DNA of 53,308 bases from a bacterium (GTDB lineage Bacteria > B130-G9), in NCBI GenBank assembly GCA_021160245.1, contig JAGHCW010000226.1, positions 1-53,308 on the forward strand, written 5' to 3'. Below, in pieces: positions 9,614 through 48,183 of this stretch. Every line of letters starts with the position of its first letter. Position 1 is the first letter of the stretch. The notes under the pieces were generated by a model that saw only the letters and a program-made list of their open reading frames with translations, ran no database searches and was not told the DNA's origin. Made by a program: the position numbers and the translations under genes.

Positions 9614-10953
9614 TGTTCGATAGCCTTTCGCTCAGACTTCAATCCGTCTTCAGGAAACTGAAGAGCAAAGGAACTCTCTCCTCAAAAGACGTCTCCGTCG
9701 CAATGCGCGAGGTGCGCCGCGCGCTCCTTGAGGCGGACGTCAACTACAAAGTAGTGAAAGATTTTGTGGCAGGGGCGCAGGAGCGCGCGATTGGCTCTGG
9801 CATACTCTCTGGGTTGAACCCGGGACAGCAGGTCGTCAAGGTTGTTCATGATGACCTCGTGCGCCTTCTCGGGGAGAAGGTTGCCAAGCTGAAGGTCGCG
9901 AGCAATCCACCGACGATCATCATGCTCGTTGGCCTACAAGGATCGGGCAAGACAACAGCCTGCGCAAAACTCGCAAGGCTTGTCAAAATGGCCCATAAGT
10001 ATCCGATTATGGTTGCCGGCGATATCTACAGACCGGCCGCAATAGACCAGCTTGAGAAGCTAGGGCGAACGCTCGAGATAGAGGTCTTCTCCCGTGGTAA
10101 AAAGGACCCGGTTGCCACATGCGACCAGGCAGTTAAGTATGCGAAGAAGAAGGGCTGGGACACTGTGCTCATCGACACAGCGGGCCGTTTGCATATTGAC
10201 GATGTTCTAATGCAGGAGCTTCGGTCGATAAAGAAAAAGGTCAATCCCACCGAAATTCTCCTCGTGTCGGATGCAATGACGGGACAAGACGCCGTGAACA
10301 TCGCCTCAAGCTTCGACGAGAAATTGGGCATTGATGGCGTGATCTTGACAAAAATGGACGGCGACTCGAGGGGCGGGGCTGCGCTCTCCATACGCGCGGT
10401 CACCGGCAAGCCGATAAAACTCATCGGAACCGGCGAGAAGCTCGAGATGATTGAGCAGTTTCACCCGGATAGGATGGCCTCGCGGATACTGGGCATGGGT
10501 GACGTTCTAACGCTCATTGAGAAGGCCGAGAAGGCGATGAGCAAGAAGGAGGCGGAAGAACTTGAGAAGAAGCTGAGGCGCGATGAGTTCACGCTTGATG
10601 ATTTTCTCAACACGATAAAGCAATTGAGGAACATGGGACCTCTTGAGCAGTTGCTTGAGATGATTCCCGGCATGGGTAAGCTCAAGGCGTTGAAGAACTT
10701 TGAGTTTGACGAGAGTGAGGTTGGCCGTGTGGAGGCCATCATCAGTTCGATGACGAAGCAGGAGCGAGTCAACCATGCAATCTTAAACGGCAGTCGGCGA
10801 AGAAGAGTTGCCGGAGGTAGTGGCACATCTGTTCAGGAAGTGAATGCGCTGATGAAACAGTTTGCCCAAGTCAGGAAAATGATGAAGCAGATGAAAAGTA
10901 GAGGCGGCAAACTCGGTGGGATGGGCATTCCACCTGGCTTTCTGAATGGTTGA
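9613..10953 (+). CDS. ffh: signal recognition particle protein Ffh
   Basis: The SRP54 GTPase that, with 4.5S RNA, delivers nascent membrane proteins to FtsY. 446 residues: N domain 1-90, G domain with GLQGSGKTT (107-115), DTAGR and TKMDGDSRGG, and a C-terminal methionine-rich M domain from about 330 (GMGKLKALKNF, VRKMMKQMKS, GMGIPPG). All GTPase motifs are intact. It overlaps rnc by one base and precedes rpsP by 109 bp. Confidence 0.97.
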   Translation: MFDSLSLRLQSVFRKLKSKGTLSSKDVSVAMREVRRALLEADVNYKVVKDFVAGAQERAIGSGILSGLNPGQQVVKVVHDDLVRLLGEKVAKLKVASNPPTIIMLVGLQGSGKTTACAKLARLVKMAHKYPIMVAGDIYRPAAIDQLEKLGRTLEIEVFSRGKKDPVATCDQAVKYAKKKGWDTVLIDTAGRLHIDDVLMQELRSIKKKVNPTEILLVSDAMTGQDAVNIASSFDEKLGIDGVILTKMDGDSRGGAALSIRAVTGKPIKLIGTGEKLEMIEQFHPDRMASRILGMGDVLTLIEKAEKAMSKKEAEELEKKLRRDEFTLDDFLNTIKQLRNMGPLEQLLEMIPGMGKLKALKNFEFDESEVGRVEAIISSMTKQERVNHAILNGSRRRRVAGGSGTSVQEVNALMKQFAQVRKMMKQMKSRGGKLGGMGIPPGFLNG

Positions 10954-36051: not shown

Positions 36052-39000
36052 CTATTCCAGCAAGAATGATGCCGTCCCGATGTCAGAAAGCGGTCTGAGC
36101 GTTCCCGGTTCCACAAGCGCCGTGCGCAGTGTAAATTGGCCCACAACATCAAACGGCTTTGCTCCTGGCAGATTAACCACAAACGATATGAATGACGACT
36201 CGAATCCCGCGGGAAGAGTAACCGCCTCCTGCATCGGCAACACCGAGGCCGACCATCCAACGTCCTCCCCAAATGCCGCCGGCGCAAATAACTGACCATT
36301 CGGCGCCTCAAGAACCGCGTAGAAATCCCCAGTCACCGCGTAGGTCTCCGGCAGTTTCGCGTCAAGCGTCAGGGATATGGAATCCCCCGCGAGGGTATAG
36401 TTCTGTTTGTCCGGGGTCAGGCTTACAAATGGCTCCCCGGATAGGGTAAACTCAACCGTTGAAATATCGCATACAGGAATGAAGGAGCCTGGCGAAACGG
36501 CCGCCATCCGTATTGTATATTGGCCCGACCTCGAGATGAGCGGCAACATACAGGGCAGCTGTGATGACCACCAGCGGGTCGAGACCTCATACCCATTGGA
36601 TATCAGCCAGCTAGCAGCGACAGGTGATATGCCATCTATCCATGCGCCGTCCTGAGAGGCAGACCAGTGCCTCTCCTCAGGTCCATAGAGATCGAATGTC
36701 AAGACCAGATAGACATCCGCCGCGACCGAATCACCCGCATTCGCAATGCTGATAGAGACATTGAGTTCATCACCGAACTTGAACGTGGGCGAATTTGATC
36801 TGACCCCTACGGTCAGCTCCCCCGGAATCGCCACGCCCACACCTAGGAGCGGAATACCCACACGGGGTCTCTCGGGGTCATTGGACGATATGTCCAGCTC
36901 CGCCTCAATCGCGCCGTCTCTATCCGGAGAGAAGGTCACTGTTAGCCATAGCTCTGCATCTGGGGCGATTTCTGTCGGCAGCGAATGGTCCGGCTCAGCT
37001 GTGAATGCCGCGTCGTCCGTCGTAAGACCGCCAACCGTCAGGGGCGCATCGCCAACGTTTTTTATCGTGAGCACCGAGTCCCGCCGCTCTGAGACCGCTA
37101 CTTCCCCGAAATCAAGCACTTGCGCATTTACGAATATCTCAGGCTTGGGAACATGAAAACGCGTGGTTGCATCGGGAGATTCCGGCGCCGCCTCCTCGTT
37201 ACCCGCATAATCAGTGCTGATCGTGTAGAAATCATATCTGCCCTCACCATCTGGGCTCGCAAACGAAAACTGCCCGACGGTTCCGACCTCAACAAGCCCC
37301 GAATCGACCCATTCTCCATCAGCCTCACGATACCAAAGGGCGGTGCTGGCGACTCCGGAGCCGTCGTCCCGTGCCGTAAATGAAACGTCCAACGGCGACT
37401 CGTCCGAGCTGCTGGGCGCCGTCGCGGCCGAGGCGGGCGGGGTTGTGTCAACCTCCACATAGTCGTCCACGCTGCCGGCTGCCTCAACATTCGATGCCCA
37501 ATCTTGCGCCTCAGTATAAAAGTCATAGAAGCCATCTAGCGCGGGCTTCGGCGTGAACTCGAAGGTCCCAGTGGCTTCGAGGACGCTATCTCCCTTGACC
37601 CAGGCGCCGCTATTGTGCCTGTAATGAAGAGATATGCTCTTGATGCCGCAACCTACGTCCGAACTCGTGTACTCCACCAAGATGGGGTAGGAATTCGTCC
37701 GCGACTCGCCAATTGAGCATGAAGATATAGGAGTTACTCTATCCAAATAAATCAACGCCTGAGCCTCAACTGGCGCCACCTCCAGATTGCCGGCAAGGTC
37801 AGTTGCGACAGTATAAAAGGCATACTGACCATCCTGAATTAGTGCCGGGACGTAATCGAAGGCGCCATCCCCTGCATCAGAGGTTAGCCCCGTATCCCTG
37901 AAGGCGCCGCCACTATAGCTCGCCCAAAGGGCAACCTCGGCAAGTTCCGATGTTCCGTCGCTCGCGATGTATGAGACCTGAAGCGGAATAGTATTGGTGA
38001 ATGCGGACGCCGACGCCTTGGAGACCGGCGCCAATCCATCCACAGTCACAGAAACGTCAGGCACACTCGGGGCGGTCTCCACATTCCCTGCCCCATCCGA
38101 TGCAATCGTGTAGAATCGATAATGCCCGTCTGAGACCGTCTCTGGGGTGAACTCAAGCGTGCCCTCGGTGCTAACAGCTGAGATACCCGTATCCTCAAAC
38201 GGGCCATCGCCTATCGAGACCCAAAGGGCCACATCCCCGATTCCGGAGGTCACATCCAAAGCTGCGTATGATAAGCTGATCGGGAATTGCAGGGCATAGG
38301 CCGACTCGGACGTCACCGAAGAAACCGGCTTCGTCCCGTCGAAGAGCACAGCACCCCCGTCGGGCGTCTTCGGCAGAACCTCCCGGTTGCCAGCAAGATC
38401 GATGGCCACTGTTGCGAATTCATATCTTCCATCACCGTGCTGCGGAACGAACGTGAAGCTCCCATTCTCCCGTATTGCGACACCATTCAGGCTCTCTACA
38501 AGGCCCGTATCCTCCCAGTTGCCCCCATCGTATCTGAACCACAGAGTAACGCTGGCAACACCGCTGACTGAGTCATTCGCACTGTATAACACCTCAATTG
38601 GCGAGTCGCTCGTCACTATCCCCGCTGTCGGTATCAGCGACTCCGAAACTGGGGCGCTTGCGTCGAAGACCGTCGGCGCCCCGGCGCTCTCCGGTAGTTC
38701 CTCGACGTTTCCGGCACGGTCAACCCCCCGCGTGCAGATTGCCAGAGCTCCCTCACCCCACGCTGCGAGATTCAGAAACATAATGCTCCCATCGCCCAGA
38801 CCGGAATCACCTGTATCCAGCCATTCGTCGTCGCCAACCATAACCCACGCGGATACTCTCTCAACGCCGGAGACCCCGTCCGCGGCAGTATATGTCAGCG
38901 CGATCGTGGCGAAGCTCGCGTATGCAGGAGCAAAGCACTCCGTCACTGGCGCCGTCCAGTCGATCGTCATCTCGGCGTCCGCCGACGGCGGTGCACACTC

Positions 39001-42000
39001 GAGACGACACGCCTCATCAACGGCGCGCGTGTAAAACTTGTATGTGCCCTCCAACTCATCTGACGGTGTATAGCTAAACTCCCCCGAAACACCCGAGGAC
39101 AAAAGTCCTGTTGCAGCCCAGGGCTCATCTTCGAAACTCGCCCAGAGCGCGACCTCCGCAATGTTGGTCACCGAATCCGAGGCGACAAACGTAATCTCAA
39201 TCGGGAAACTACTCGCATAATCTGCGGTAGCCGCCTCCGAATTAGGAGGGGTGAGATCCACGAGAGTCGAGCACCCATAAACGCTATCCAGTGGCTGCTC
39301 GACGTTCCCAGCCATGTCAGTCCCGATAGCGCGGAATATGTACTCCCCCTCGTTCCCGTTCGCGTCGAAGAGTACGAAGCCCTCGCTCTCAAAGACCGTT
39401 GTGAAGGGCTGCCAAGTCCCCCCAAGAAAGACGCTCATGTCGATCTTCTCGATCCCGAATGGCTCGATTGTGCTGTATGTAATGCCAAACTCGGACGTGA
39501 GGGAGATGCCAGGCGCGGTCAGGGTCGTTGAGGGTCTCGTGCTATCCGCGATGGTCGTCCCGTCTGGCTCCCCTGAGGTTGGTTCCCACAGCCCCCCGAG
39601 GGTTACCGCGCGTGTATAGAACTGATAATACCCATCCCCCTCCAAGCAGTCGAACAAAAGCGTCCCGTCCGATGCAAATGAAGTCAAGCTGGTCGTGGCC
39701 CACGTTGCCCCTTCAGCGTCAACCAGAGACTGGCCAAAGCGATTGTAAAGCGTTACGTAGTCGTATCCCTCATCGCCTATGTCAACTGTGAAGCTAACCT
39801 CCACGGTCGCCCCAGTGACCCACTCCGGGCAATCTATCTCAGAGAGCGCAAGCATCGGATTGAAAAGGCATAGAACGTCCGCCTCACCGTCCGTTCCCTC
39901 CACATTGCCCGCGCCATCCGTGCCAGCAAGGAAGAATCTGTAGTAACCGGGGCCCATGTCGGCCACCCAGCCAAATGTCCCGTCTGGGGTCGCTTCCTCC
40001 AGCCCCGTGTCGCGGAGGGTCTCATCAGAAACACCCTCAAGATCTGTATAACGATAATAGAGGTGAACCAGCGCGATATCCGTCAGCTCATCGACGGAGG
40101 AGAAGATGAGGGCCATCGCCGGGTCATTCACGGCGCTTGGGCCGCTGGCAACCGTTACCGGAGAGTGAGTGTCGTATATACAACACGCATCCTCGCTGTC
40201 CCATGCCTCGACATTACCCGCCCGATCAGTTGCCTCGCTCACAAAATCATAGATGCCGTCCCCAAGGGGAAAGGGGAAATCTAAATTGCCCGATTCCGAG
40301 CTGCTCCAATCGCCTGCTGAGCTATCAGAGAACGTATCGCAGAGACCTGAGTCCATCCAATCGCCGCCGTTGAAGCGATATAGAAGTCTGACACGGTCCA
40401 CGCCTGATAGGGCGTCCGAGGCGTCGTATTCAATTTCCACTGGCGAGTTCATCGTCATCGAATCGCACCCAACAGTCGATGCGGGCAAGACTCTGTCGAG
40501 CGTTACTGAGGCGTCCGGCATCGCCGGCGGGGTCTCATGGTTACCCGCATTGTCCATCGAAATCGTCATCATCTCATAGAGGCCGTCGCCTTTAAGCGGC
40601 ATGAGCTTGCTTGGGTCAAGGTCGAAAGTGCCATAATCGCCCTCCGCGAGCAAGAGCGAGTCAGTCCAAATATCATCGGTCTCGAAACGATAATAGAGCT
40701 TCGTTTGCCCCACCCCGCTCACGCTGTCGGTCGCTGTGAACTGGACCTCAAATGGGATGCTGTTCGTGAACTCAAGCGCGCTACATTCGCTATCAGGGCC
40801 AATCACATCGACAATGGTCGAGGCATCGCCATCACCGGACGGACCCGCCTCGATATTCCCCGCACGGTCCTCCGCTATGCTCTGGAAGTAATAGACGCCG
40901 TCAGCCCCGGATATTGGGAAATCGAAGCTACCCGTATCGCCTATACGGTAGGCGTAGTGGGTCCACGCGCCAGAATTGCGCCTATAATAGAGAGCCACTC
41001 GCAGAACGCCGCTGCCGTTAATATCCTCCGCCCCGAAGGTGATTGTCATCCGGGGGCCCCTCGAATATCCTGGGCCGGAGCAGCTCGATGTGGGGTCCGT
41101 CTTGTCATAGAGGGTGGAGTCGTCGCCATCGCCGGACGGCCCCGGCTCGCTGATACCAACGGTGCTTGTCGCAATCGTCTGGAAATAGTGGGTCCCCTCA
41201 CCATCAGACGCTGTGAAATCGAACGTGCCGGACTCGGCACTATGCTTTTGACCCGTGTCCGTCCAATTTCCGGCCTGACCACACTTGTACCATAGCGATA
41301 CATAATCGAGGCCCCCACCCGTGTCGGTTACATTATAGTTGACCGCGATTGAGGGCGTCTTGCTGAAATCAGGCGATGTGCACTCGCTCTCGGGCGGAGA
41401 TTCTACGAAGACAGTGGATGTGTCTCCATCTCCAGTTGGCCCGGCCTCCCAGTTCCCGGTCTGGTCCTCAGCGACCGTCTGGAAATAGTAGGTTCCCTGG
41501 CCGTCGGTTGGCTCGAAATCGAACGTCCCGGCCTCCCCGGACTCAGTCAGCCCCGTGGCCGTCCAGTCCCCCGCCCAGAATCGATACCAGAGCGCCGTCT
41601 GGGAGATTCCGGCGAGGTTATCCGAGGCGCTGAAAGTTATAGGTATGGGTGACACGCTGGTTTGTCCCGGCGAGCTTGCCTCAGAAGCCGGGGCGGTCTC
41701 ATCGTAAAGGGTCGTCGCATCGGCGGTGCCCGGTGGGTTCTCAGAGTGACCATACGTATCGTATGCAATTGTATAAAACTGGTAGTAACCCTCTCCTTCA
41801 GAGAACGGAAATGAGAGCGTTCCCTGGCTCTGATAGCCTACTGCGCCTGAGTTGGTCCAGCCCGAGGACCAATCAGAGCCGTCCGATGAATAGCGATACC
41901 AGAGGCCCGTTCTGCTATATGTGTATCGGCCGCCATCGCCGACGTAATCTACCCCGACGGGGCTCTCGGATGAATAAGGTTCGCATTCGCACCTGCTAAA

Positions 42001-43284
42001 TGGGTTCGGATCGCCGTATATGGTGGGGTCACCAAGAAGCGTCAACCCATAAAACCAGCTTATCGTGCTTGAGCCGAAGGGATATTTCTCGGAAAACCAA
42101 TCGTTATATGCTTGCCCAATGTTGTTCCCATCCGCGAGCGACTCGAAGAACCTGTGTCCATAATAAAACCCACCCGTCTTAGCGCTGCCCAGCACCAGCT
42201 GACCGTAATCCCCAGCGAATAGATACCACCCGCTTTGGTAGTCAGCAGCCGAATAGTCCGCGTTCGAGCAGGCGAATGTGATGTAAAAATGGAAGCGGGG
42301 ACTATGAGCTATCACGTCTTCCGTGTAGAAATATGAATACCCAGACGGGCTATGAAATTGATGCCCACCCGGCCAAGAGTGGACACAGACAAGTAGCCAT
42401 TCATACTCGTCATCGAGGCGCGTTCCGTAATCGGTCGCGTTCGTGGTCGATGTCTCCGTGACGTGGTCCCTTGAATCGCGCAGATAGTCAAACGCGTCAT
42501 CCCAATATGACCAAAGTGACGCCCAGTCATCGTCGATGTACTCAAGCGCCCGTCGCGGCAGCCTCCGATTCTCAATGCGATACTGATGATTGTTGTTGAA
42601 GAACCGCTTCACAAGGACGACCTCGTCCTCGGACATGTCGTTCGCAGTAACTCGCCCAATCCATATCTCGGCCATCGTATCGCCCGAGCCGTCGGTGTGG
42701 GAATCAAGGAGGTCGTTGCCAGTGGTATCGGTCCAGGAGCCGTCCATATCGCGGTAGTATTGGTCGCATGGGAAGACATCAACACCGTTGAAATCATTGA
42801 GATGCTCAAACCAGGGAATCGGCAGCTCCCCAACAAGGAGACACCCTTCGAACGAACTACCCCAGGTGTTGTAGTAGCCCTGCAGTATCGCCCTTATATC
42901 CTCCTGCGTGCCCCCCTCGGACGTCGCAATGGCAACGGAGTAACCGGCGTCAATCAAATCTTGCTCATAAACGTTCAGCTCGGCCAAGATACTCGGATAG
43001 AGAGTCGTATTCACGAGAACGAGAACCATCCCGCCCGGCGGCGGAGTCGCCTTGTCTGGCCCATCAATCACCTCGAAGCGAAATGGTCTTTGTGGGTGAA
43101 TTTCATTGTAGCGCTCGGCGCGATAGGGGTCGGGCTTCTCAAAATCCGTCCATCTAACAAGCGGCTCCGGATAGCCCGCATCACCTGAAGAACTGGCGGC
43201 ATCACCCTCCTCAAGGGCCCCGCTCTGAGAAGTCAGACCAAAAAGCAGGAACAGCAGTAATGCAAGCACAAAATACCTTTTCAT
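36052..43284 (-). CDS. 2410-residue secreted protein: C25-like head, 16 Ig-like repeats, ASH domain
   Basis: The start is ATG 43284 (GAGGAG upstream; signal peptide MKRYFVLALLLFLLFGL). Residues about 60-430 resemble a gingipain-type (C25) caspase-like fold, with a candidate catalytic His in CVHSWPGGHQFH and Cys in YITFACSNADYS. Residues about 430-2045 hold 16 tandem modules of 95-110 residues. A typical module reads DSVSGVASVTLWFRYDGGNW, then GRYEFATVAIDLAGNREVLP, with a proline at each boundary. An ASH/HYDIN-like domain follows (LDFGEVAVSERRDSVLTIKN), then two beta domains, the first with STRWWSSQLPCMLP as in the FGE-fold protein at 19181. It probably forms a long surface stalk carrying a protease-like head. 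The frame is unbroken over 7.2 kb. Confidence 0.88.
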   Translation of the reverse strand: MKRYFVLALLLFLLFGLTSQSGALEEGDAASSSGDAGYPEPLVRWTDFEKPDPYRAERYNEIHPQRPFRFEVIDGPDKATPPPGGMVLVLVNTTLYPSILAELNVYEQDLIDAGYSVAIATSEGGTQEDIRAILQGYYNTWGSSFEGCLLVGELPIPWFEHLNDFNGVDVFPCDQYYRDMDGSWTDTTGNDLLDSHTDGSGDTMAEIWIGRVTANDMSEDEVVLVKRFFNNNHQYRIENRRLPRRALEYIDDDWASLWSYWDDAFDYLRDSRDHVTETSTTNATDYGTRLDDEYEWLLVCVHSWPGGHQFHSPSGYSYFYTEDVIAHSPRFHFYITFACSNADYSAADYQSGWYLFAGDYGQLVLGSAKTGGFYYGHRFFESLADGNNIGQAYNDWFSEKYPFGSSTISWFYGLTLLGDPTIYGDPNPFSRCECEPYSSESPVGVDYVGDGGRYTYSRTGLWYRYSSDGSDWSSGWTNSGAVGYQSQGTLSFPFSEGEGYYQFYTIAYDTYGHSENPPGTADATTLYDETAPASEASSPGQTSVSPIPITFSASDNLAGISQTALWYRFWAGDWTATGLTESGEAGTFDFEPTDGQGTYYFQTVAEDQTGNWEAGPTGDGDTSTVFVESPPESECTSPDFSKTPSIAVNYNVTDTGGGLDYVSLWYKCGQAGNWTDTGQKHSAESGTFDFTASDGEGTHYFQTIATSTVGISEPGPSGDGDDSTLYDKTDPTSSCSGPGYSRGPRMTITFGAEDINGSGVLRVALYYRRNSGAWTHYAYRIGDTGSFDFPISGADGVYYFQSIAEDRAGNIEAGPSGDGDASTIVDVIGPDSECSALEFTNSIPFEVQFTATDSVSGVGQTKLYYRFETDDIWTDSLLLAEGDYGTFDLDPSKLMPLKGDGLYEMMTISMDNAGNHETPPAMPDASVTLDRVLPASTVGCDSMTMNSPVEIEYDASDALSGVDRVRLLYRFNGGDWMDSGLCDTFSDSSAGDWSSSESGNLDFPFPLGDGIYDFVSEATDRAGNVEAWDSEDACCIYDTHSPVTVASGPSAVNDPAMALIFSSVDELTDIALVHLYYRYTDLEGVSDETLRDTGLEEATPDGTFGWVADMGPGYYRFFLAGTDGAGNVEGTDGEADVLCLFNPMLALSEIDCPEWVTGATVEVSFTVDIGDEGYDYVTLYNRFGQSLVDAEGATWATTSLTSFASDGTLLFDCLEGDGYYQFYTRAVTLGGLWEPTSGEPDGTTIADSTRPSTTLTAPGISLTSEFGITYSTIEPFGIEKIDMSVFLGGTWQPFTTVFESEGFVLFDANGNEGEYIFRAIGTDMAGNVEQPLDSVYGCSTLVDLTPPNSEAATADYASSFPIEITFVASDSVTNIAEVALWASFEDEPWAATGLLSSGVSGEFSYTPSDELEGTYKFYTRAVDEACRLECAPPSADAEMTIDWTAPVTECFAPAYASFATIALTYTAADGVSGVERVSAWVMVGDDEWLDTGDSGLGDGSIMFLNLAAWGEGALAICTRGVDRAGNVEELPESAGAPTVFDASAPVSESLIPTAGIVTSDSPIEVLYSANDSVSGVASVTLWFRYDGGNWEDTGLVESLNGVAIRENGSFTFVPQHGDGRYEFATVAIDLAGNREVLPKTPDGGAVLFDGTKPVSSVTSESAYALQFPISLSYAALDVTSGIGDVALWVSIGDGPFEDTGISAVSTEGTLEFTPETVSDGHYRFYTIASDGAGNVETAPSVPDVSVTVDGLAPVSKASASAFTNTIPLQVSYIASDGTSELAEVALWASYSGGAFRDTGLTSDAGDGAFDYVPALIQDGQYAFYTVATDLAGNLEVAPVEAQALIYLDRVTPISSCSIGESRTNSYPILVEYTSSDVGCGIKSISLHYRHNSGAWVKGDSVLEATGTFEFTPKPALDGFYDFYTEAQDWASNVEAAGSVDDYVEVDTTPPASAATAPSSSDESPLDVSFTARDDGSGVASTALWYREADGEWVDSGLVEVGTVGQFSFASPDGEGRYDFYTISTDYAGNEEAAPESPDATTRFHVPKPEIFVNAQVLDFGEVAVSERRDSVLTIKNVGDAPLTVGGLTTDDAAFTAEPDHSLPTEIAPDAELWLTVTFSPDRDGAIEAELDISSNDPERPRVGIPLLGVGVAIPGELTVGVRSNSPTFKFGDELNVSISIANAGDSVAADVYLVLTFDLYGPEERHWSASQDGAWIDGISPVAASWLISNGYEVSTRWWSSQLPCMLPLISRSGQYTIRMAAVSPGSFIPVCDISTVEFTLSGEPFVSLTPDKQNYTLAGDSISLTLDAKLPETYAVTGDFYAVLEAPNGQLFAPAAFGEDVGWSASVLPMQEAVTLPAGFESSFISFVVNLPGAKPFDVVGQFTLRTALVEPGTLRPLSDIGTASFLLE

Positions 43285-43415
43285 CGAAACTGTCTCCTCA
43301 AACCTTGAAGTCATCAAGAACCGGTTTCTCTAAATATGAGCCACTATAGTATCGTTGAACCGCCTCCGAAGCAAACACAATCAAATATTGAGGCAAAATA
43401 GACTGATACACAGTA

Positions 43416-43627: not shown

Positions 43628-45901
43628 TTATCTAACTACTCGCGCCTCGCGCATTGGTCTGAAATGCCTCTCGACGGGACTCGGCAATCCGGCGCCAACC
43701 GGGCCGTGCGCCGTCCATTTGCCATTCGTGTCGATGTCAACCAGCCAATACTGGTATCTGACGCCAGGCCTGACATTGCTGTCAACGAACCTGTATGAGG
43801 CGCCAGCACCTGGGGCGCCCTGCGCGCCAATCAACCTGCTGATGGCCTTTCGCTCCTTACCATCGAAACGATAGATAACGAAACCGGAATTATCGACTTC
43901 CGCGCCCGTCTCCCAAGTCAGCACGATCTTGCCTGCTCTGGCGTGCGCCTCGAAGCTCGAGAGCCTGATGTATGTGTTCAGCTCGCCAATGATGCGAGTG
44001 TGGGGGCAGCCGTAGAGGTTGTAAACGAAGTAGTTATGCCAAGCGGCAGAGCTGCTGTGGTAGGTGCTGAGGTAGTAGTTTGCCTCATAGAATGCCCTTG
44101 CACAGGCGCCGTTTGCGCTGGAATAATCGGTCAGGTTGCGGGCATACCAATAGCCTATGTCCTGGGAGCCGCCCCAGCGACGGGTATATGTGAAGTTGCC
44201 AGAGTAACCCAGCGAGCTGTTCGACGCGCTAGAAGTATTCACCGCGCCCTTCTTCAGCAGAGCATAGCCCAGGTTGTTTGCATCTGATGGCCAGCCATTT
44301 TGGCAGCTGATCTGGAATGTGAACGCCGGATGCGTGTCATCCAGATTCGAGCAATAACTTGTCTTGAATAGGTAGCCCTCGGAGCAGGCTGCTGGGCTGC
44401 CATGTCCTACTACTGCAACAGAATGGTTGCCATGGCCAAACCAAAAGACCAAGCCATAAGCGTGCGCCGCCCACCTGTCCACAACGCTGCCCGCGGCGCT
44501 GATGCCGCCGTGAAGCACTTCGTCCCAAGCATAGTCGCTACGGCAGTTATCATGAGCGTTCTGATACATCTTGTAGGTTGTGAAGTTGCGGGTGCTCAAG
44601 TACTGGTTGATCATGTCACGCGCATAGTAGGACGGGTCAGTGCTCGTCCACGGGAAAGAGAGCGGAAACAGAACCGAGAGGCGCCAGTCGAGATCGCCGT
44701 GCTCCGTGTCGTAGTTGATCTCTTTTTGGATGATGTTGTCCAGATTCGTGTAATCTGTGCCATATACCGGTATGCGAGCCGGATAGATCTCTGGGTCGAG
44801 ATCGGCGTTGTCCTGCCCATACTCACCGAAATACTGGTCTCCGTCGGAATCCCAATCGCCGGTCAAGTCGGCGAAGTAGTAATCGGTCGGAACGGTCAGG
44901 CCGTAACCTGGATACGTATTCTTCATCGGGACATAGGAGTGGCCCGGATCGGGATCACCGATGAACAGAACGTAAACCACACCATAATTCTGGTAGTAGT
45001 CAATGAGCCACTTTCTCATCTTGTCAGCGACGCCATCGGGAGCCTGGCCAGTCTTTGTGCCATAGCCGCCCGCGGTGTCCCCATCCTCGTAACTGTGGCT
45101 TTCCGTGACTGTTAGCACGATATGCCCGACATTCTGAAGATGTGTATTGAGGTTGGCTAGCTCCGTGCTGCCGTTCTTGATCGCCTCTGTCGTCATAATG
45201 ACATAGTCGTAGGAGTCGCCCATCGGTCGGAAGCCATTAGTGAGCTTATACCACTCCCTAGCTTCTCGATAGTTGACGAATCTTGTAGCGGCCTTGTCGT
45301 CGAAGACCATGTCGTTCAGCGATGCCTTGTCAAGCAAATCAGAATCCCGCTCAAACTCGATCCTCAGACGCACGCCATCGCGGAACAGAAGTTGCCGGCT
45401 GATTGGATTGTAGCTGAATGGCGCGTATGCTATTCGGACATACTTCCACTTGCGCATCTGTCCCGTGCCATTCGACTTAATGGTGTCCTCGGGCAGAAAC
45501 TCGTCCGATGAGTAAACGTCAACGTCTTTCCCATCCATAACGTTCGTTGCGCCTTGCCAGTCCTCGGTGAACTCACCGTCGGGGCCAGGAACCATAAGAG
45601 GCGGATGAGGCGCGATATCGAACTGCCCGGGCAGAGCGCTCTCGCCTCTTTCGAGCTCTTCAATCGATATCGAGTCCCACACCACATCAGGCGGCAGGGC
45701 AACGTGATAGACGTTAATTGGCAGCATTGGAGACCCGGGCGTTCCCGCCAGACCGTAGCCGTCCATTTCAATGATCTCACCGTTTTCGACATCCACGATC
45801 TCATACTCAGAGGCCGTGAACTCGACGATAATCTCGTCGGCGAATCCTGCTCCGGTAAGGGCCAGAATCGCCACGATTCCCAAATAAATGCTAGTTCTCA
45901 C
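43628..45901 (-). CDS. secreted gingipain-like cysteine protease (peptidase C25)
   Basis: 757 residues from GTG 45901 (GAGGG 7 nt upstream); the open frame extends to 45967 without an RBS. The signal peptide is VRTSIYLGIVAILALTGAGFA. A pro-region of about 200 residues (YGLAGTPGSPMLPINVYHV) is followed by the C25 domain: YDYVIMTTEAIKNG, VLFIGDPDPGHSYVPM, catalytic His490 in WFGHGNHS and Cys533 in QISCQNGWPS. The C-terminus has a fibronectin-like module (KIVLTWETGAEVDNSGFVIY, LVDIDTNGKWTAHGPV) homologous to that of the neighbouring C1 protease, probably for sorting or attachment. It lies 90 bp after a gene for a 39-residue peptide and is probably expressed with it. Confidence 0.93.
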   Translation of the reverse strand: MRTSIYLGIVAILALTGAGFADEIIVEFTASEYEIVDVENGEIIEMDGYGLAGTPGSPMLPINVYHVALPPDVVWDSISIEELERGESALPGQFDIAPHPPLMVPGPDGEFTEDWQGATNVMDGKDVDVYSSDEFLPEDTIKSNGTGQMRKWKYVRIAYAPFSYNPISRQLLFRDGVRLRIEFERDSDLLDKASLNDMVFDDKAATRFVNYREAREWYKLTNGFRPMGDSYDYVIMTTEAIKNGSTELANLNTHLQNVGHIVLTVTESHSYEDGDTAGGYGTKTGQAPDGVADKMRKWLIDYYQNYGVVYVLFIGDPDPGHSYVPMKNTYPGYGLTVPTDYYFADLTGDWDSDGDQYFGEYGQDNADLDPEIYPARIPVYGTDYTNLDNIIQKEINYDTEHGDLDWRLSVLFPLSFPWTSTDPSYYARDMINQYLSTRNFTTYKMYQNAHDNCRSDYAWDEVLHGGISAAGSVVDRWAAHAYGLVFWFGHGNHSVAVVGHGSPAACSEGYLFKTSYCSNLDDTHPAFTFQISCQNGWPSDANNLGYALLKKGAVNTSSASNSSLGYSGNFTYTRRWGGSQDIGYWYARNLTDYSSANGACARAFYEANYYLSTYHSSSAAWHNYFVYNLYGCPHTRIIGELNTYIRLSSFEAHARAGKIVLTWETGAEVDNSGFVIYRFDGKERKAISRLIGAQGAPGAGASYRFVDSNVRPGVRYQYWLVDIDTNGKWTAHGPVGAGLPSPVERHFRPMREARVVR

Positions 45902-45991
45902 CTTGCTTCCCTCTCTTTGTTTGGTCAATATCAACGAGATAACGCATTTCGGCTCGTGATTCGACAAGCTAGCCAGGCGCGATTAGTCGCC

Positions 45992-46111
45992 CTAGCAGCC
46001 GCTTGAGGAGCCGCCGAAGCCCGTGCAGGACAGCGAGGGTCCCAGCGCAGAGAGGATGCTCTTCGAATCCAATGTGATAACTCTAGGCGCCTCGTAAGTC
46101 TTTGTAGCCAT
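45992..46111 (-). CDS. 39-residue RiPP-precursor-like peptide, copy 1
   Basis: ATG 46111 has AAGGAG 5 nt upstream, the best RBS in the region. The peptide has a leader-like N-terminal half with TYEAPRVITLDS, then ILSALGPS, and a C-terminal core SCTGFGGSSSGC with Cys29 and Cys39. The YxxP-x-V part resembles the leader motif that binds RRE/PqqD-like domains in lasso and radical-SAM peptides; the core is Gly/Ser/Cys-rich like a modified peptide. There is no signal peptide. Copy 2 (47894-48013) differs only at residue 2 (Ala versus Thr). It is followed after 90 bp by the C25 protease. I do not know a named family for it; function inferred only. Confidence 0.85.
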   Translation of the reverse strand: MATKTYEAPRVITLDSKSILSALGPSLSCTGFGGSSSGC

Positions 46112-46277
46112 TGCCACTCCTTCTAAATAGTTGGTTCAGGGCTTTTGCCCAAAAACAAAACGAATTGCATCTCGGGAGAGTTAAGCAGCTCGGGAAGGTC
46201 ATGAACCCCACTGGCCCCATAGGGCTAATTAAGATTCAGCACTTTCCTCTAGCTCCCGAAAGTTCTCCCGCATAAGT
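46112..46277 (-). promoter_or_regulatory. structured 5' leader of the peptide-C25 cassette
   Basis: The untranslated leader upstream of peptide copy 1 is closely similar to the one at 48014-48183. Shared parts include AAAGTGCTGAATC, AGCCCTATGGGGCCAGTGG, CTTAACTCTCCCGAGATG and CCTGAACCAAC. Visible stems are GCCC-TATG-GGGC, CGGGAGA with distant TCTCCCG, and GGGC-AAAA-GCCC shortly before the RBS. Such conservation between flanking copies outside the coding part suggests a regulatory RNA. I recognise no known riboswitch class. Confidence 0.6.
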
Positions 46278-46524: not shown

Positions 46525-47802
46525 CTACCTCATCGCAACCACGCCAGCATTCACAGGTCTCAAGTTAAGCCTCTCGAACTCAACTCTCGCACACGCTGGT
46601 CCGTGAGCCGCCCACTTGCCGGCGGTATCGACATCCACCAAGTAGTAGCAGTAGGTTACTCCGGGGGAGGCGTCTTCGTCCACAAACGTGTATGAGTCGC
46701 CGGAGCCCGGCGTACCCTCGGCCTGGATGAAGCCGCTCACCATCTCGTAGCTCTGACCGCTATCGGCGGTTCTGTAGATAACGAAGCCAGCGTTGTCTAT
46801 CTCTGCGCCGGTCTCCCAGGCCAGGATGATATCTGAGCCTTGTGCTTCAGCGTCAAATGAGTTGAGGTCGATGTAGGTCAGAGTATCGCCGGGCTCGATC
46901 TCTAGAGTCCATGTGCCGAACTTGACGCATGTCTGTCCCCATCTGATTCTGAAGTAGCCGCTTTCGGCCCAACCTGCCCCCCAGGAGTTCTTCACTATCC
47001 AATACTTTTCGTCGTCGTCCCAACCGACGATAACGACAGCATGGCCACCCAGGTAATCACCGTATGCGTACTCATAAATCCCACCATCGTAGTAGTAGTA
47101 GAAATCTTCGTACACATCGAGATGTGTGGCGACGGGGTATTGATGGACAGCCTGCTTTATGAGGTTCACGTCCTCGCTTGTGGTGGTGACCCAACTCCAA
47201 GATTCTATCTTCTGCGCCCTTGAGGACCAGTCCGAACACGTATCAGCACAAGGAAGATCCGAGGCCGCGTATGGGAAGCAATCCTCATCAGGACTGCCCG
47301 CAGCGATGTAATACGAAAGAGCAAGGTAAGTGTAACCACCGCTGCAGCTGCCGGCGCCCGAACAAGACAGGATGTGTTGCTCCGAAAGATTGTAGTCGCA
47401 ACCCTCCCTGTTGTGCTTTATTATGGTGCCAGATTCAACGGCTGCGGTTGCCGCGAAATCCCAACAGCTCCCGCAGCTGCCCTGGCTCCTTACAGGGGTC
47501 ACCCAGTTTCCTCCGTTGTCCCTCCAATCGAAGTGAGCAGGAAGGTCCATTGGGCGGTATCCACCCTGGTTCAGGTTTGGTCCGATCGCCGATTCGTCGG
47601 GTTCCAGGTCTCCGCACACCACTTCGCCCGGCAAGTCGACCATCGGGCTCATATTGGCCGTCCAGGGATTGCCCATCTCCTCAAGCTTTGCTCTGACCTT
47701 AGCCAGGTCTTCCTCAGACGCTTCACCAAACACAATGGTGCTGGCAAAGCTAGTCACGGCAATAGTCAATATCACTAGTCGTAACAATGCAAATCGGTTC
47801 AA
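46525..47802 (-). CDS. secreted papain-like cysteine protease (peptidase C1)
   Basis: 425 residues from TTG 47802, with GGGAGG 8 nt upstream. A signal peptide (LLRLVILTIAVTSFAS) and a short pro-region (about 30-85) precede the papain domain: FDWRDNGGNWVTPVRSQGSCGSCWDFA with Gln107 and Cys113, then GGHAVVIVGWDDD with His254, then VKNSWGAGW with Asn272. The catalytic set is complete. From about 310 a fibronectin-like module (DIILAWETGAEIDNAGFVIY; LVDVDTAGKWAAHGPA) matches the C-terminus of the C25 protease next door. It is preceded at 91 bp by peptide copy 2. Confidence 0.95.
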   Translation of the reverse strand: MNRFALLRLVILTIAVTSFASTIVFGEASEEDLAKVRAKLEEMGNPWTANMSPMVDLPGEVVCGDLEPDESAIGPNLNQGGYRPMDLPAHFDWRDNGGNWVTPVRSQGSCGSCWDFAATAAVESGTIIKHNREGCDYNLSEQHILSCSGAGSCSGGYTYLALSYYIAAGSPDEDCFPYAASDLPCADTCSDWSSRAQKIESWSWVTTTSEDVNLIKQAVHQYPVATHLDVYEDFYYYYDGGIYEYAYGDYLGGHAVVIVGWDDDEKYWIVKNSWGAGWAESGYFRIRWGQTCVKFGTWTLEIEPGDTLTYIDLNSFDAEAQGSDIILAWETGAEIDNAGFVIYRTADSGQSYEMVSGFIQAEGTPGSGDSYTFVDEDASPGVTYCYYLVDVDTAGKWAAHGPACARVEFERLNLRPVNAGVVAMR

Positions 47803-47893: not shown

Positions 47894-48013
47894 CTAGCAG
47901 CCGCTTGAGGAGCCGCCGAAGCCCGTGCAGGAGAGCGAGGGTCCCAGCGCAGAGAGGATGCTCTTCGAATCCAATGTGATAACTCTAGGCGCCTCGTAAG
48001 TCTTTGTAGTCAT
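47894..48013 (-). CDS. 39-residue RiPP-precursor-like peptide, copy 2
   Basis: It starts at ATG 48013 with AAGGAG 5 nt upstream, and ends TGC TAG at 47894-47899. The sequence is the same as copy 1 apart from residue 2 (Thr), including leader segment TYEAPRVITLDS, ALGPS hinge and the SCTGFGGSSSGC core. Nucleotide identity is also very high (one synonymous CTG/CTC change near the core plus the residue-2 change), so the duplication is recent or kept uniform by gene conversion, although the proteases that follow are of different families. It lies 91 bp before the C1 protease. Confidence 0.85.
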   Translation of the reverse strand: MTTKTYEAPRVITLDSKSILSALGPSLSCTGFGGSSSGC

Positions 48014-48183
48014 TGCCACTCCTTCTAAATGGTTGGTTCAGGGCCCAAATGCCCTTAATGCAAAACGACTCACATCTCGGGAGAGTTAAGTTAGTCAGGA
48101 AGGGTATGAACACCACTGGCCCCATAGGGCTGAATGGGATTCAGCACTTTCCCTCAAACACAATAACTATCCTTCACCGATAA
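48014..48183 (-). promoter_or_regulatory. structured 5' leader of the peptide-C1 cassette
   Basis: Paralogue of the leader at 46112-46277 (see shared blocks there). Changes between copies often keep pairing: TGAAT-CCC-ATTCA is a perfect hairpin here, and the pre-RBS stem GGGC/GCCC persists with a different loop. The CGGGAGA partner of the long-range stem is absent in this copy. Confidence 0.6.

Follow-up and report, generated by a model that had tools for sequence, protein, structure and literature searches.

The closest published system to the one considered here is that of the linear polyphosphorylated peptides (LPP) of Bacillota, in which a YxxPxV leader is bound by a discrete RRE, an HprK-like kinase is present and an archaeal-type signal peptidase acts as the leader peptidase (PMC13381572). 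The LPP leader has the consensus YxxPxVLxHQxIxFETxxS, and the core genes are described together with those for an NTP transferase and an MsbA-like transporter (PMC13381572). Other points of comparison are the radical-SAM/SPASM RiPPs with thioether or C-C links, represented by CteB (ranthipeptide), SkfB (sactipeptide) and SuiB (streptide), and the lasso peptides. Enzymes of the CteB, SkfB and SuiB type cluster with their own precursors, and are not known to be accompanied by HprK- or PorU-like genes.

The window analysed here is a whole stretch of 53,308 nucleotides of bacterial DNA. A short ORF within it is likely (probability about 0.8) to encode a precursor that belongs to an RRE/radical-SAM RiPP family, matured in trans and apparently not described before; there are as yet no expression, binding or mass data.

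A repeated and conserved peptide gene

The ORF lies on the minus strand at 45992..46111, with its ATG at 46111 and its stop codon ending at 45992, and specifies the 39-residue peptide MATKTYEAPRVITLDSKSILSALGPSLSCTGFGGSSSGC. A Shine-Dalgarno sequence, AGAAGGAG, is found on the same strand at 46117..46124, 5 nt before the ATG. The peptide can be divided into a leader, MATKTYEAPRVITLDSKSILSALGP, and a putative core, SLSCTGFGGSSSGC, the border between them being inferred from conservation. A preliminary description, made from sequence alone, had claimed an ORF at this position with a YxxPxV motif, an ALGP hinge, two Cys nine residues apart and a strong ribosome binding site, and had been unable to name a matching family. 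All of this held: the motif reads YEAPRV, nine residues separate the two Cys, the Shine-Dalgarno is at 46124-46117, and the window peptide has no match in Pfam or NCBIfam. Nor was support found for the possibility, raised there as a refutation, that the peptide belongs to a larger known secreted family, since besides the lack of a Pfam or NCBIfam match no N-terminal signal peptide is evident by eye.

A second copy, missed in that description, lies at 47894..48013 (minus strand; beginning MTTKTYEAPRV) and has the same Shine-Dalgarno AGAAGGAG at 48019..48026. The two peptides differ at one residue and their DNA is 98% identical over 151 nt. The repeat takes in a further ~90 nt upstream, where the 5' regions of copy 1 (46156..46247) and copy 2 (48061..48152), both on the minus strand, are 84% identical. 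The genes 3' of the copies differ, copy 2 being followed by a C1 protease gene and copy 1 by a gene for a C25-like protein. Thus, the peptide and its 5' region were copied without the neighbouring gene.

The window contains two ORFs of this pattern with a Shine-Dalgarno, where 200 first-order Markov simulations gave 0.01 on average. As the pattern was drawn up with the peptide already in view, this shows rarity and nothing more, and conservation across copies and genomes provides support for the ORF that is independent of pattern rarity. The peptide is present in four of 60 genomes searched, which are the four members of one family (the source genome, G000, and G001-G003), at 5 (source genome), 7, 15 and 2 copies per genome. 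The total of 29 includes two leaderless fragments (G002:C354 and G001:C74), neither of which has a tail gene (see below) nearby. A profile search run over 386 genomes recovered the same four, together with a weak hit in G139, a genome unrelated to them.

An alignment of 27 rows (26 bacterial copies and one phage-borne copy, with window copy 2 and the two leaderless fragments left out) shows conserved blocks in the leader (YEAPxVxT, or more loosely YE.P.V.T), the hinge (LGP(S)) and the core (SCTGFGG..C), ending with a C-terminal Cys. The leader, hinge and core of the preliminary RiPP reading are thus all conserved, and this part of the reading is supported. The conserved residues are encoded by many different synonymous codons, which shows coding selection on the peptide. 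Pairwise difference is greatest at the third codon position (0.60, against 0.29 at position 1 and 0.20 at position 2), and median dN/dS is 0.21 over 189 usable pairs. The 25 sequences behind these values were selected for CTGFG, which leaves only the remaining columns informative, and the copies are not independent because the four genomes are of one family. A chance ORF can be rejected on the coding selection (synonymous variation and dN/dS) together with the Markov simulations; the peptide is a real coding family.

A phage contig, present both in IMG/VR and in a MAG, carries a homologue, MRYEPPLIITIDNAVLAAAIGPSISCTGFGGAVNCD (L126, about 9949-10057, plus strand; also L127). The start codon of this homologue overlaps the stop codon of a gene (TAATG) whose 950-aa product has no known function, and a gene for a family-2 glycosyltransferase comes next. 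The phage copy has no match in PHROGs or NCBIfam, and viral scans for further copies returned just this phage. None of five maturase-locus proteins has a match in ~60 of the 67 kb of the phage contig, and the phage copy would therefore depend on a host maturase.

Linkage to secreted proteins with an FnIII-like tail

Both window copies precede genes for secreted proteases on the minus strand. Directly 3' of copy 1 is a gingipain-like protein with a C25 propeptide match (43628..45902, the GTG start at 45902 being inferred), whose C-terminal FnIII-like tail is encoded at 43688-43978. Between copies 2 and 1 lies a papain-family (C1) protease (46525..47802) with its tail at 46582-46878. Linkage of the peptide to such tail genes is general: each of the 27 leader-bearing copies adjoins a gene whose secreted product has an FnIII-like tail at its C terminus. 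For 19 of the 29 copies, a denominator that retains the two leaderless fragments, a tail domain on the same strand ends upstream at a distance of under 400 bp, a situation expected by chance at 0.09% of positions. Eight further copies have the tail domain in the next gene downstream, and the remaining two are the leaderless fragments. Many peptide starts lie within ~20 nt of the stop codon of the upstream gene.

The tail domain was defined from six neighbours of the peptide and is predicted to be a beta sandwich (mean pLDDT 73), the best matches of the model among solved structures being FnIII domains. It has 54 matches in the four genomes, and ORF counts vary with method (54, 55, or 48 when only ORFs of at least 250 aa are taken and duplicates are removed). 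A separate feature of the tail proteins in these genomes is a C-terminal Arg, present in 28 of 48 compared with 12 of 127 other long ORFs (Fisher p 8e-11; examples in the window at 43631 and 46528). Three of those 12 are the PorU-like proteins themselves. It is conceivable that this Arg is a sorting or processing signal. The window also encodes, at 36052-43317 on the minus strand, a 2421-aa protein with repeated Ig-like domains and a HYDIN/ASH-like domain near its C terminus.

The positions of the two window copies before protease genes, and the tight linkage to FnIII-tail genes, could be taken to mean that the peptide is an unmodified accessory (a chaperone, inhibitor or propeptide remnant, for example) of the adjacent secreted proteases. 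This is very unlikely. Partners elsewhere are not proteases alone but include, judged by eye, beta-helix-like proteins, with no change in the peptide core; the peptide has no signal peptide; and its homologues are found in RRE/radical-SAM clusters of other lineages. The multiple copies, the linkage to tail genes and the phage copy were all beyond the reach of the preliminary description.

The maturase locus and its counterparts elsewhere

The absence of any RRE or maturase from the genome had been named in the preliminary description as a refutation. This was checked and is not the case. A PqqD search finds RREs in all four peptide-bearing genomes, each with a tandem pair in which a discrete RRE of ~95 aa is accompanied by a ~463-aa radical-SAM/SPASM protein whose N-terminal part is a second RRE. 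The locus continues with an HprK-like kinase and then, where the contigs reach, a PorU-like C25 protease and a signal peptidase. In the source genome it lies on a separate contig, C17. Two of the usual features of an RRE-dependent RiPP system are present: a short precursor with leader and core but, by eye, no signal peptide, and an RRE and a modifying enzyme in the same genome.

The radical-SAM protein has a SPASM domain and a CxxxCxxC motif, and scores far under every listed NCBIfam equivalog cut-off. Its structure model, which is of moderate confidence (mean pLDDT 65), matches CteB, anSME (sulfatase maturase), SuiB, SkfB, TigE and ChlB. The signal peptidase is of the archaeal type (TIGR02228, 55.3 bits; cut-off 51.85), and the HprK-like assignment rests on similarity below the cut-off (TIGR04352, 1.5e-15). 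The C25 proteases have conserved GHG and CxNG motifs, which we take to be the active site of C25 proteases, aligning with those of gingipain R. An RNA-like element that is conserved and folds similarly in two genomes lies 5' of the discrete RRE (L065:7960-8062 and L067:2505-2608, both minus strand; folding z -1.0 and -4.1), and the L067 element has no Rfam match at E<=5.

No precursor lies beside the maturase locus in the four genomes, and the link between peptide and maturase there therefore rests on synteny elsewhere and on the locus being the sole RRE locus. In three of the genomes, including the source genome, the tandem pair provides the only PqqD/RRE matches. In the fourth, G001, there is a further match, which belongs to a separate lasso-like cluster (HprK-like, Transglut_core3, RRE and lasso cyclase-like genes; L069, G001:C54, 1132-4815).

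The YxxPxV leader motif, and the presence of this cluster in a relative, raise the possibility that the peptide is a lasso peptide precursor. This is all but excluded. The core has no Asp or Glu with which to close a ring, and the candidate was rejected on this ground. In addition, no lasso cyclase was seen beside the radical-SAM loci examined, where the one cyclase-like gene noted is that of the separate cluster of G001 on its own contig, and the only Transglut_core3 match in the source genome is a 666-aa ORF on another contig.

Synteny of a precursor and an orthologous radical-SAM gene within one cluster is found in other lineages. The radical-SAM protein is detected at E<=1e-50 in eight of the 386 genomes, and the five that have a peptide match are all among these eight. 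In G139, whose precursor was found unprompted by the profile of family peptides, the homologous peptide (..YEAPKVITYHEDDILEELGPAQACTSPCPAP) has a discrete RRE on one side and a T9SS-type secreted protein with an FnIII tail on the other, and a radical-SAM gene, its product 37% identical to that of the window family, is next; the contig ends before any recognised HprK gene. A c-di-GMP-I riboswitch is located upstream of this cluster (L125:4684-4756, minus strand). The order in G044 is RRE, precursor, secreted protein, radical-SAM, HprK, C25 and S24/S26-like peptidase, and in G189 it is precursor, radical-SAM and HprK, with no discrete RRE in the 14 kb examined. Pfam PqqD falls just under its cut-off in the G189 radical-SAM protein and is absent from that of G044.

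The G044 and G189 precursors were first spotted by a YxxP pattern, which also matches by chance. However, a profile of the 27 rows, which contains neither of them, ranks these two ORFs first and second of 1773 (E 7e-4 and 4e-3, improving to 7e-8 and 1e-6 after G139 is added). The three outside precursors share the pattern YxxPxVIT..LGxxQAC and have no NCBIfam match. Since G044 and G189 belong to one small phylum, they and G139 amount to two independent lineages outside the family. Two other radical-SAM matches were rejected. The one in G173 is a different protein, of 849 aa, and a convincing YxxP ORF is lacking in 16 kb; the same goes for a second match in G139 (C62).

In the outside cores, as in that of the family, LG is followed four to five residues later by [AS]C, and a second Cys comes after a variable interval of 3 to 11 residues. 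Such two-Cys cores fit a Cys cross-link, although the chemistry is inferred.

These clusters also bear on whether the family is simply a member or close offshoot of LPP, the kinase modifying the peptide, the archaeal-type signal peptidase cleaving it and the radical-SAM gene serving something else. A YxxPxV leader, discrete RRE, HprK-like kinase and archaeal-type signal peptidase are indeed all present. However, the radical-SAM gene adjoins the precursor in G189 and shares a cluster with it in G139 and G044, the remainder of the LPP leader consensus (HQxIxFETxxS) is not matched, and LPP are reported from Bacillota. We regard this alternative as very unlikely.

A proposed pathway and its relation to known systems

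Under the preferred reading, that of a distinct RRE/radical-SAM RiPP family, the window ORF is one of several dispersed precursors whose YEAPxVxT leader would be read by the RRE domains of the single locus on contig C17. The RRE-fused radical-SAM/SPASM enzyme would most likely cross-link the conserved two-Cys core, the HprK-like kinase would probably phosphorylate core Ser/Thr, by analogy with LPP, and the archaeal-type signal peptidase would probably cut off the leader. The PorU-like C25 protease would act in export or attachment. Because every precursor has an FnIII-tail secreted protein encoded next to it, the mature peptide would most likely work at the cell surface with that partner. RRE binding, the type of modification, the order of steps and the surface function are inferences, and chemistry and function are unproven. 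A bolder and unlikely version is that the RiPP is a surface-display tag which the C25 ‘sortase’ joins to the FnIII-tail protein, or uses to anchor it, with the tail Arg forming part of the signal and the phage borrowing the host maturase to tag a protein of its own.

The family would add an apparently unnamed RRE/radical-SAM RiPP group from uncultured lineages, and it is unusual in three respects. Its numerous near-identical precursors are dispersed over the genome, each with a secreted-protein gene as partner; the maturase is encoded together with a PorU-like protease; and one copy is carried by a phage that has no maturase genes in the DNA examined. RiPP chemistry may here serve the handling of cell-surface proteins instead of the production of diffusible products.

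No paper joining RiPPs or radical SAM with gingipain, PorU, T9SS or LPP was found in the open-access literature searched, and supplements may hold such clusters. The C25 proteases resemble the PorU sortase of type IX secretion, scoring to the PorU model NF033707 (257.5 and 283.8 bits) but under its cut-off of 420, and one partner, that in G139, ends by eye in a T9SS-type tail. SprA has no match in the four genomes, but the positive control was also silent. With lasso peptides the family shares a YxxPx[L/V] leader and a PqqD-type RRE, but it has no adjacent cyclase and no acidic ring residue. With CteB, SkfB and SuiB it shares the RRE-radical-SAM-SPASM architecture, the fold and the core Cys, differing in that its enzyme scores far below every listed NCBIfam equivalog cut-off, is accompanied by HprK- and PorU-like genes, and clusters with its precursor in G139, G044 and G189 but not in G000-G003. 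LPP remain the nearest published counterpart, with four features in common. However, the word ‘radical’ occurs nowhere in the text of PMC13381572, and no C25/PorU-like protease appears in the parts of it consulted, whereas the window family has both enzymes. Moreover, LPP precursors lie in the cluster and have variable C termini, whereas those of the window family are dispersed and have a near-invariant two-Cys core.
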